Source: Actinocorallia herbida (GTDB lineage: Bacteria > Actinomycetota > Actinomycetes > Streptosporangiales > Streptosporangiaceae). Taken from it: a stretch of 64,000 nucleotides of DNA. Shown one piece after another: positions 42,165-44,857 of the stretch (positions within the stretch are counted from its first letter, which is position 1; each line of letters starts with the position of its first letter). A model generated the notes under the pieces. That model ran no database searches, was not told the DNA's origin, and was given only the letters and a program-made list of their open reading frames with translations. The stretch covers positions 7,626,001 through 7,690,000 of the forward strand of contig NZ_RJKE01000001.1 in the NCBI RefSeq assembly GCF_003751225.1. Direction: 5' to 3'. The position numbers and the translations under genes are program-made.

Positions 42165-44636
42165 TCAGACGACGATGTTGACGATCTTCGGCGCGCGCAC
42201 GATCACCTTGCGCACCGCGGCGTCGCCGATCGCGGCCTGGACCTTCGCCGAGGCCAGTGCCAGCTTCTCCAGCTCGTCCTCGGCGATGTCCGGCGCCACC
42301 TCCAGGCGGTCGCGGACCTTGCCCTTCACCTGCACCACGCAGGTCACCGACTCCTGCACCAGCAGCGCGGGATCCGCGACGGGCCAGGAGACCCGGGCGA
42401 TGGAGGTGTCGGCGCCGTGGCCCAGCTTCTCCCAGGCCTCCTCGGTGATGTACGGGGCGGCGACCGACAGCATGATCGCCAGCGCCTCGGCCGCCTCGCG
42501 CACCGCGGGGTCGCCCGCACCGGGGCCGCTGTCGATGGCCTTGCGGGCCGCCGACGTCAGCTCCATCAGACGCGCGATGGCGACGTTGAACCGGTGCCCC
42601 TCGACCAGCCGGGTGACCTCGTCGACCGTCCGGTGGGTGAAGCGGCGCAGGTCGGTGTCGCCCGCGGCGAAATCGACGCCGGGCTCGCTCGTCACGTCGG
42701 TCATGACCCGGTAGGCCCGGGCCAGGAACTTCTGAGAGGCGGCCGGGGAGACGTCGGCCCAGTCGATGTCGTCCTCCGGCGGGCCGCCGAACAGCATGGT
42801 CAGCCGGACGGCGTCGACACCGAACTCGTCGATCTGCTTGCCCAGGTCGACGCCGTTGCCCAGGGACTTGGACATCGCCTTGCCCTGGTTGATCACCTGG
42901 CCCTGGTTCAGCAGCCGGGTGAAGGGCTCGGTGAAGTCGATCATGTCCATGTCGTACAGCACCTTGGTGAAGAACCTGCAGTACAGCAGGTGCATCACCG
43001 CGTGCTCGATGCCGCCGATGTACTGGTCGGCGGGCATCCACTGCTTGACCTTGGCCGGGTCGAACGGGCCGCCGGTGTAGCCGGGCGAGGTGTAGCGCAG
43101 GAAGTACCAGGACGAGTCGACGAAGGTGTCCATGGTGTCGGTGTCCCGCTTGGCGGCGCCACCGCACTTGGGGCAGTCGACGTTGACCCAGTCCGTGGCC
43201 GCGGCCAGCGGGGAGATCCCCTTGGGGGCCAGGTCGGCGCCGCGCAGGTCGTCGGGCAGGGTGACCGGCAGCTGGTCGTCCGGGACGGGCACCTCGCCGC
43301 AGTCCGGGCAGTGGATGATCGGGATCGGCGTGCCCCAGAACCGCTGCCGGGACAGCAGCCAGTCGCGCAGCCGGAAGTTGACGGTGCCGTGGCCCAGGCC
43401 CTTGTCCTCCAGGATCGAGATGATCTTGGTGATGGCGTCGGCCTTGGTCAGCCCGTCCAGCGGACCGGAGTTGACCAGCCTTCCCTCGCCCGGGGTGGCG
43501 GTGCCCGTGGCGTTCGGGTCCTCGGCGCCGGTCTCCAGCACCACCTTGACCGGCAGGCCGAACGCGCGGGCGAAGTCCAGGTCGCGCTGGTCGTGCGCGG
43601 GCACCGCCATGATGGCGCCGTGCCCGTAATCGGCCAGCACGTAGTCGGCGGCCCACACCGGAATCCGCTCGCCGTTCACCGGGTTGACCGCGTGGACGCC
43701 CAGGAAGACGCCGGTCTTCTCCTTCTCGGTGGACAGCCGGTCGATGTCGCTCAGCTTGGCGACCTCGGCCCGGTAGGCGTCCAGCGCCGCCCGCTGCTCA
43801 TCGCTGACGATCTGCTCGGCCAGCGGCGCGTCGGCGGCCACGACGAAGAAGGTCGCGCCGTACAGGGTGTCGGGGCGGGTGGTGTAGACGGTGACGGGCC
43901 CGTGGCCTTCGATCTCGAAGGTGACGTCCGCGCCCTCGGAGCGCCCGATCCAGTTGCGCTGCATGGTCAGCACCCGGTCGGACCAGCCGCCCTCGATCTG
44001 CTTCATGTCGTCCAGCAGCCGCTGCGCGTAGTCGGTGATCTTGAAGTACCACTGGGTCAGCTCACGCCGCACGACATCGGCGCCGCAGCGCTCGCACCTG
44101 CCGGCGACGACCTGCTCGTTGGCCAGCACCGTCTGGTCGTTGGGGCACCAGTTGACCAGGCCGCCCTTGCGGTAGGCCAGGCCGCGCTCGAAGAACCGGG
44201 TGAACATCCACTGGTTCCACCGGTAGTAGTCCGGGTCGCTGGTGTGCAGGCGGCGCGACCAGTCGAAGGAGATCCCGTAGCGCCGGAAGGAGTTCGCCTG
44301 CGTCTCGATGTTGGCGTAAGTCCACTCCGCGGGGTGGGCGTTGCGCTTGATCGCGGCGTTCTCCGCGGGCAGGCCGAAGGAGTCCCAGCCGATCGGGTGC
44401 AGGACGTTGTAGCCCTTGTGGAACCAGTAGCGCGCGATCACGTCGCCGATCGCGAAGACCTCGCCGTGGCCCATGTGCAGGTCGCCCGACGGGTAGGGGA
44501 ACATGTCCACCACGAAGCGGCGCTCGCGCGGGTCCGCGGGGTCGTCACTGGCGGCGAAGGTGCCGAGCTCGGCCCAGCGGTCCTGCCACTTGTCCTGGAC
44601 TGCGCGGACGTCGTACTGCTGCTCTTCGTCGCTCAC
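42165..44636 (-). CDS. leucyl-tRNA synthetase
   Basis: An 823-residue class I leucyl-tRNA synthetase. The HIGH-type motif is [11 protein letters not shown] near residue 47 and the KMSKS loop is [10 protein letters not shown] near residue 590. The CP1 editing domain contains [16 protein letters not shown] and [15 protein letters not shown], the hydrolytic site that clears misacylated tRNA. A zinc-binding CERCGADVV and a second CPDCGEV/CPKCGG cluster are visible. The C-terminal domain ends [17 protein letters not shown] 44636 follows aaggaca. The 5' leader holds a leucine-codon leader peptide and terminator-like hairpin (see separate entries), suggesting attenuation by charged leucyl-tRNA. Confidence 0.96.
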
Positions 44637-44676
44637 TGGGTGTCCTTTTCCGGTTCGCTGCCTCTAGCAATGAAGA

Positions 44677-44763
44677 AGCCCCTCACACAGGGAGGGGCTG
44701 CCGCGCCGACCTGGTCCGCCCGGAAAACGCCTTCGGCGTGCCCGGGACCTCGGTCAACGCGGC
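44677..44763 (-). promoter_or_regulatory. leuS leader: long-range helix plus terminator hairpin
   Basis: On the minus-strand RNA, gccgcguugacc (44763-44752), which covers the leader-peptide stop codon, can pair over 12 positions (two G-U) with ggucggcgcggc (44711-44700). A GGUCC/GGACC hairpin folds between them. Directly after, agccccuc (44699-44692) pairs with gaggggcu (44684-44677) and is followed by ucuucauu, resembling an intrinsic terminator 41 bases before the leuS start codon. Which fold prevails should depend on the ribosome position on the leader ORF. Confidence 0.65.
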
Positions 44764-44789
44764 CGGCTGAGAAGCAGCCACGATCGCAT
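44754..44789 (-). CDS. leuS leader peptide MRSWLLLSRPR
   Basis: A 12-codon ORF (ATG 44789 to TGA 44754) reads MRSWLLLSRPR, with three consecutive Leu codons CTG-CTT-CTC. CTT is rare in a genome this GC-rich, which would sharpen stalling when leucyl-tRNA is scarce. There is no strong ribosome-binding site; a -10-like tattct ends six bases before the ATG, so a leaderless start is possible. It sits 118 bases ahead of leuS, before the hairpins described for 44677-44763. Confidence 0.65.
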   Translation of the reverse strand: MRSWLLLSRPR

Positions 44790-44857
44790 AGCCCAAGAAT
44801 AGCGCAAGAGCAAGAAACCTCGGGTTTTCCTTGACGGCCTGCGCTCCGCCTCTAGAT

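Follow-up and report, generated by a model that had tools for sequence, protein, structure and literature searches.

In the window, that is, the whole stretch of 64,000 nucleotides that was analyzed, the leucyl-tRNA synthetase gene leuS (42165..44636, GTG start at 44636, 823 aa) of Actinocorallia herbida is preceded by a compact leader, all elements of which lie on the minus strand together with the gene itself. The product of leuS matches NCBIfam TIGR00396 (leuS_bact) with E 4.1e-283, and the gene is 90% identical to leuS of Actinocorallia populi. Read towards leuS, the leader starts with a -10-like box, TATTCT (44796..44801), which ends 6 nt ahead of the ATG of a short ORF, hereafter called leuL (44754..44789). 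Delimited from the sequence and by comparison with relatives, leuL encodes the 11 residues MRSWLLLSRPR in the codons ATG CGA TCG TGG CTG CTT CTC AGC CGG CCG CGT TGA (44789-44754), and its run of leucine codons, CTG CTT CTC, occupies positions 44769..44777. The stop codon of leuL is overlapped by the 5' arm, GCCGCGTTGACC (44752..44763), of a long-range helix of 12 bp, hereafter P1, which starts 14 nt past the first base of Leu codon 1 and closes with the 3' arm GGTCGGCGCGGC (44700..44711). In a terminator scan the latter arm is flush with a terminator-like hairpin, hereafter T (AGCCCCTCCCTGTGTGAGGGGCT, 44677..44699); the helix location script, which finds both arms of P1 as well, places T at 44702-44674, with one mismatch. 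The tail 3' of T, TCTTCATT, contains a short U-tract, and AAAAGGA (44643..44649) is the probable ribosome-binding site of leuS.

An earlier note on this DNA had pointed out the mini-ORF with its three leucine codons, the 12-bp helix over the leuL stop, the terminator-like hairpin and the -10-like hexamer six bases ahead of the ATG. All these features are present at the positions given above; the stem of T covaries in relatives (see below), which also keep a similar spacing of the box. The terminator scan, run on both strands of 501 bases, returned three sites, two of them overlapping at T, compared with a mean of 0.4 in shuffled sequences. A consensus promoter scan found no sigma-70-type promoter, the visible part being the -10-like box only, and an exact search showed that the leader core occurs as a single copy in the genome. 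T-box riboswitches (RF00230) also control aminoacyl-tRNA synthetase genes, and yet RF00230 has no match in the whole genome, a single contig of 9.8 Mb, or in the window. Rfam as a whole gave no match in the window at the gathering score, the best for the leader reaching only 10.7 bits (E 7.2), and a T-box or another known Rfam family is thereby rejected as the identity of the leader.

Known leuS leaders and distribution among relatives

Attenuators ahead of leuS were predicted in 2005 for Streptomyces avermitilis and S. coelicolor (text of PMC1262725), and the text of PMC8079986 describes leuL2 of S. lividans TK24, MRAVRLLLSEPR followed by a stop codon, with a leaderless transcript that starts at the ORF and continues into a hairpin and uridines. 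The leuS leader of A. herbida belongs to this already published kind of attenuator. The Streptomyces examples likewise lie ahead of leuS and combine a leader ORF rich in Leu codons with a terminator hairpin, although they come from a different actinomycete family; leuL2 in particular has in common with leuL three Leu codons, the PR ending before the stop and leaderless transcription, the last being predicted for leuL with a start at 44789. The possibility raised in the earlier note that the ORF is leaderless gains weight from the S. lividans transcript, which belongs to the same leader. The main text of PMC8914203 (on S. griseus) and that of PMC13236596 make no mention of leuS. For further comparison we used a covariance model, hereafter R1, built from 66 leuS leaders, the window leader being within the training set. 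The features that define the leuL2 family, namely an ORF of the form MR..LLL..PR with stop, a -10-like box, the same helices and a match to one covariance model, were all found in the window leader (82.9 bits). Genomes of the family labeled f20, one leader of which (L188) encodes MRAVRLLLSEPR, the very peptide of S. lividans leuL2, scored 79.3-94.3 bits among the matches listed, four f20 leaders having been in the training set.

The conservation of the leader was evaluated in 199 distinct regions upstream of leuS. The near-relative set comprised the 80 best of 478 named loci, the 30 loci that scored best among 200 order genomes and 40 more of these genomes picked by genus, an uneven sample, and the class set was drawn from 73 of 118 genomes; one locus whose contig begins within leuS (L102), one that was too short (L152) and 22 near-identical upstream regions were left out. 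In class genomes with LeuS matched in pieces the gene start was taken from the local alignment, and leaders may be missed there. We then searched for ORFs 7-22 codons long that contain a run of three Leu codons (the LLL test), and noted whether a TANNNT box lies 5-8 nt ahead of the start. Such an ORF with its box is found in 85 of the 127 near-relative regions and in 28 of the 72 class regions, hence in 113/199 overall, the window's own counted; the reverse complements gave 0/199 and dinucleotide shuffles 1/3980 with the box and 27/3980 without it. A -10-like box accompanies the LLL ORF in 113/113 regions, the box being no criterion for the ORF, and the form frequently seen by eye in relatives is MR...LLL..PR followed by the stop codon. 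The claim of conservation rests on the LLL test because this test, unlike the score used to select the 128 leaders described below, gave no credit for a -10 box or for an ending in P[RHC].

By the tests used, many relatives appear to be without this form of the leader, for 42 of the 127 near-relative and 44 of the 72 class regions failed the LLL test. One group of relatives (L119, L123-L126, L128, L130, L134, L137-L144) is without an accepted leader, as are loci of Microbispora and Planotetraspora such as L052, L055 and L058. With R1, the Planotetraspora loci L055, L063 and L082 showed weak matches (29-35 bits), while L052 and L058 gave none. No leader was accepted in 72 regions, namely 71 unselected ones and L151; R1 matched eight of these at E <=0.01, and its matches were strong in three that the ORF test had missed (L217, L176 and L173). 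The LLL counts are therefore lower bounds, since R1 matches regions that the ORF test missed. Two loci that resemble the region of Microbispora bryophytorum (L109), L017 and L018, retain a -10-like box ahead of leuS; their leader start codon is gone and, by eye, the Leu run, P1 and T look decayed, and R1 found nothing in either. In the Nonomuraea loci L087 (N. terrae) and L092 (N. aridisoli), ~120 extra bases separate T from leuS as compared with most other Nonomuraea.

In the window leader and those of relatives the otherwise rare codon CTT is strongly preferred, most of all at the third place of the Leu run: this third codon is CTT in 95/113 and CTC in 18/113 LLL leaders, compared with 6 CTT among 296 Leu codons counted over eight genes of the window. 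The bias may reflect sensing by the CUY-reading tRNA, or else a requirement for unpaired RNA rich in U.

Covariation and spacing of the helices

The helix, ruler, folding and covariation analyses were carried out with 128 selected leaders, of which 113 are LLL leaders and 15 have fewer Leu codons in a row. The search for P1 ran from ~26 nt ahead of T to 2 nt within it, so that linkers from about -3 to +20 were possible, and the script located both helices in 127/128 leaders. The exception, L151, has no T; in L147 P1 was misplaced (linker 19) and the leader was dropped from later steps, and L206 was not anchored in the ruler measurement.

In an alignment of 66 of the 84 non-redundant leaders, P1 and T are paired in 95.8% of the cells, compared with 40-56% in slid controls, and changes on both sides of a pair occur in 12 pairs and 112 cells; 0/500 shuffles reached any of five covariation measures. 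The arms of P1 also fit their own partner better than permuted ones (0/5000 permutations; 53 and 30 distinct arms in two sets), as illustrated by the variants ACCACGTTGA, GCCACGTTGA, GCCGCATCGA, GCCGCACCGG, GCCGCGGCGA and GCCGTGCTGA, whose partner arms retain most or all pairs. In three leaders (L153, L154 and L207), the ORFs read MRSALLLT, MRAILLLS or VARFLLLT and the stop codon TAG overlaps the P1 core by its final G alone. Because P1 persists in these leaders, it is kept as RNA and not for a peptide ending in PR; that the PR ending is kept for the sake of the peptide is rejected, since P1 persists without it and both arms vary together. A comparison of leuS leaders had been proposed as a check in the earlier note, and its outcome agrees with the proposal: relatives carry the mini-ORF with its Leu codons, a -10-like box and covarying stems.

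The position of P1 varies little on either side. Counted from the first nucleotide of Leu codon 1, the P1 core begins after 14 nt in 109 of 111 LLL leaders and after 11 nt in the other two, a spacing whose freedom to vary is limited by common descent and by the reading frame. The start of the stop codon lies at -2, 7, 13, 16, 22 or 25 nt relative to the start of P1 in the same class of leaders. On the other side, the linker between P1 and T is 0 in 77/127 leaders, -1 to +1 in 110/127 and -3 to +2 in 126/127. The two helices share no base in 95/127 leaders and overlap by 1-3 nt in 32/127; the window leader, with a linker of -3 for T as extended by the script and of 0 for T of the terminator scan, was counted as an overlap of 3. 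Neither the 14-nt spacing nor the abutment of P1 and T is described in the text, figures aside, of PMC1262725 and PMC8079986.

Candidate mechanisms

Two features favor attenuation, namely the cluster of cognate codons in a short ORF ahead of leuS that is predicted to be translated, and the predicted intrinsic terminator, with covarying stem and U-rich tail, between this ORF and the gene. The leuS leader is thus very probably a ribosome-mediated transcription attenuator that senses charged Leu-tRNA; this confidence covers the attenuator only, the steric step discussed below being its least certain part. The leader-peptide attenuator proposed in the earlier note is supported by the comparison with relatives, which concerns sequences, whereas its suggestion that stalling changes the fold is not supported insofar as the change would consist in taking the bases of the terminator, because little of the 5' arm of T is already paired while the ribosome stalls.

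This follows from the folding of 126 leaders in three states, with no ribosome, with a ribosome stalled on Leu codon 1 and with one that has reached the stop codon. The probability of T is >=0.8 in 112, 119 and 122 of the 126 leaders in these states, respectively (0.76 in the window leader and about 0.2 in L069). T probability fails as a discriminating measure: for the E. coli trp attenuator, which served as yardstick, it is likewise 0.99-1.0 in every state. At equilibrium T would form in all three ribosome states, and how P1 would stop termination is not evident from the sequence. The pairing of the T 5' arm before its 3' arm is made has medians of 0.36, 0.20 and 0.335 for the three states in the order given above (0.32, 0.29 and 0.58 in the window leader), compared with 0.06, 0.62 and 0.01 for E. 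coli trp with the same script; in the stalled state it reaches >=0.5 in 2/126 leaders and >=0.8 in none. The slightly freer T 5' arm would, if anything, favor termination on stalling. Competition between P1 and T for base pairs was sought by folding and not found, the leaders lacking the trp pattern.

Our preferred reading is steric hindrance of T by P1, an inference that starts from the spacing of the elements, folding alone not predicting antitermination. A ribosome whose A site holds Leu codon 1 would cover roughly the next 12-13 bases. Given this footprint and the 14-nt spacing, P1 would be just free when the ribosome stalls, whereas in most leaders a ribosome at the stop codon would lie over the P1 5' arm, and over only part of it where the stop lies 22-25 nt downstream. 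With plentiful Leu-tRNA the ribosome would reach the stop codon and keep P1 from forming, so that T folds freely and transcription ends. With scarce Leu-tRNA the ribosome would wait at Leu codon 1, its A site on that codon and its front edge just short of P1, leaving P1 free to form; since P1 ends without a gap at the base of T, it may hinder closure of the lowest pairs of T inside the exit channel of RNA polymerase. With T hindered, leuS would be transcribed, and the proposed direction is therefore more LeuS when Leu-tRNA is low. The leader adds a further case of the predicted control of leucyl-tRNA synthetase in actinomycetes; its layout could matter more, as the spacing matches the front edge of the ribosome and the helix touches T without sharing bases. 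If true, attenuation could be tested in a form outside the textbook drawings of antiterminator and terminator, and a simple sequence rule would be available to find such switches.

A serious rival to steric hindrance, even if not a likely one, holds that P1 is mainly a pause hairpin which synchronizes RNA polymerase with the leading ribosome, regulation then coming from the coupling and not from P1 blocking T. In trp-type leaders the pause hairpin sits where P1 sits, and P1 would be complete with the polymerase about in T; the flush placement of P1 against T is left unexplained by such a role.

Similarly unlikely is classical attenuation as in E. coli trp, with mutually exclusive antiterminator and terminator. 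In 2005 the text of PMC1262725 labeled the leuS leaders 'classical candidate attenuators' and gave them an antiterminator and a terminator; the order of the elements agrees with this and so does the overlap of P1 and T in the 32 leaders counted above. The leuS leader resembles the trp attenuator also in its peptide with regulatory codons and in its U-tailed terminator. However, the trp antiterminator takes the 5' arm of the terminator, which P1 of the leuS leaders hardly does, and a plain base-pair swap fails as an explanation for this reason. An antiterminator excluding T through shared bases was not found, considering that 95/127 leaders share none and that the T 5' arm is at least half pre-paired on stalling in only 2/126, the stalled median of 0.20 contrasting with 0.62 for trp.

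Translational control, in which the Leu-codon segment would pair with a segment past T near the ribosome-binding site of leuS, as in the LEU element of leuA, is highly improbable. In the window, the segment 44657-44668 is complementary to the Leu-codon segment 44766-44778. The minimum-energy fold of the window leader closes with such a helix; the partner site lies, however, 7 nt upstream of AAAAGGA and not on it. Position-restricted permutation with three window lengths gave p values of 0.0054-0.060 in the family set and 0.041-0.24 in the class set, and from 0/5000 to 0.018 when both sets were pooled, a procedure that mixes lineages of differing composition. When ranked against swapped partners, 7/32 leaders of the class set fall in the best tenth; yet this holds for only 7/94 in the family set (median 0.63) and for 14 of all 126 leaders, which is about chance (median rank 0.47). 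Across relatives, support for this pairing is weak and inconsistent, being weak to moderate by the permutation and chance-like by the ranking. Finally, a chance combination of a mini-ORF with GC-rich hairpins, to which one might be led by the ready folding of DNA of high G+C and by a fold z-score of only -2.53 for the leader region, is already contradicted by the conservation and covariation with their controls and can be dismissed.

Related leaders ahead of cimA, ilvB and leuA

In the genome of A. herbida, R1 matches three places at E <0.001, namely the leaders of leuS (82.9 bits, as above), cimA (37.7 bits) and leuA (26.9 bits). The leuA leader (L235, G000:C1:1214866-1217500) encodes VLFGLLLLSGRDEA and stop, and apparently corresponds to the known LEU-element type. 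In the class sample, at least 154/246 genomes are matched at E 0.001, a count that includes the leaders of cimA, ilvB and leuA. Fifty mostly weaker places were examined, L245 being left out of this classification, and comprised 21 cimA, 16 ilvB, 7 leuA and 4 leuS leaders, with two places not assigned.

The leaders of ilvB and leuA in Actinobacteria are like those of leuS in having branched-chain codons with P1 soon after, and ilvB also has T beside P1; the leuA leaders differ from the leuS leader in that they are without an obvious terminator (texts of PMC8079986 and PMC1262725). According to the text of PMC1262725, changes of the candidate codons in the S. coelicolor ilvB leader were without effect, a result that argues against simple sensing of codons in this related leader, and the effect of codon changes in leuA was unlike classical attenuation.

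P1 and T are separated by -1 to +1 nt in 20/21 cimA and 14/16 ilvB leaders. In cimA, P1 lies 12-14 nt from the first regulatory codon in 13 of the 19 scored rows and 10 nt from it in the other six, in which a Val codon after the Ile codons was counted as regulatory by the script; in ilvB this distance ranges from 10 to 17 over 16 rows, with only two at 14, a spread that arises partly because the codon triple and the edge of P1 are ambiguous. The ruler is thus shown for leuS and likely for cimA, whereas the ilvB rows do not show it. We tentatively suggest, as a possibility only, that actinomycete leuS, cimA and ilvB share a non-overlapping steric attenuator, in which the helix that governs read-through leaves the bases of T alone and sits flush at its base, with a ribosome ruler between the first regulatory codon and this helix.

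Our search of the literature, judged by titles, found no report of a cimA leader peptide, although the survey of Lopatovskaya et al. (2010) may list some such leaders. With R1, cimA leaders were found in the A. herbida genome and in 20 other genomes. The A. herbida leader (L234, G000:C1:814376-817000; leader ~814576-814685) encodes MRSGLIIIGRRVG and stop, with three Ile codons, and has P1 and a terminator ahead of cimA; the downstream protein is citramalate synthase (TIGR00977, 641.9 bits vs a cut-off of 450). A leader with Ile codons ahead of citramalate synthase points to isoleucine control of cimA.
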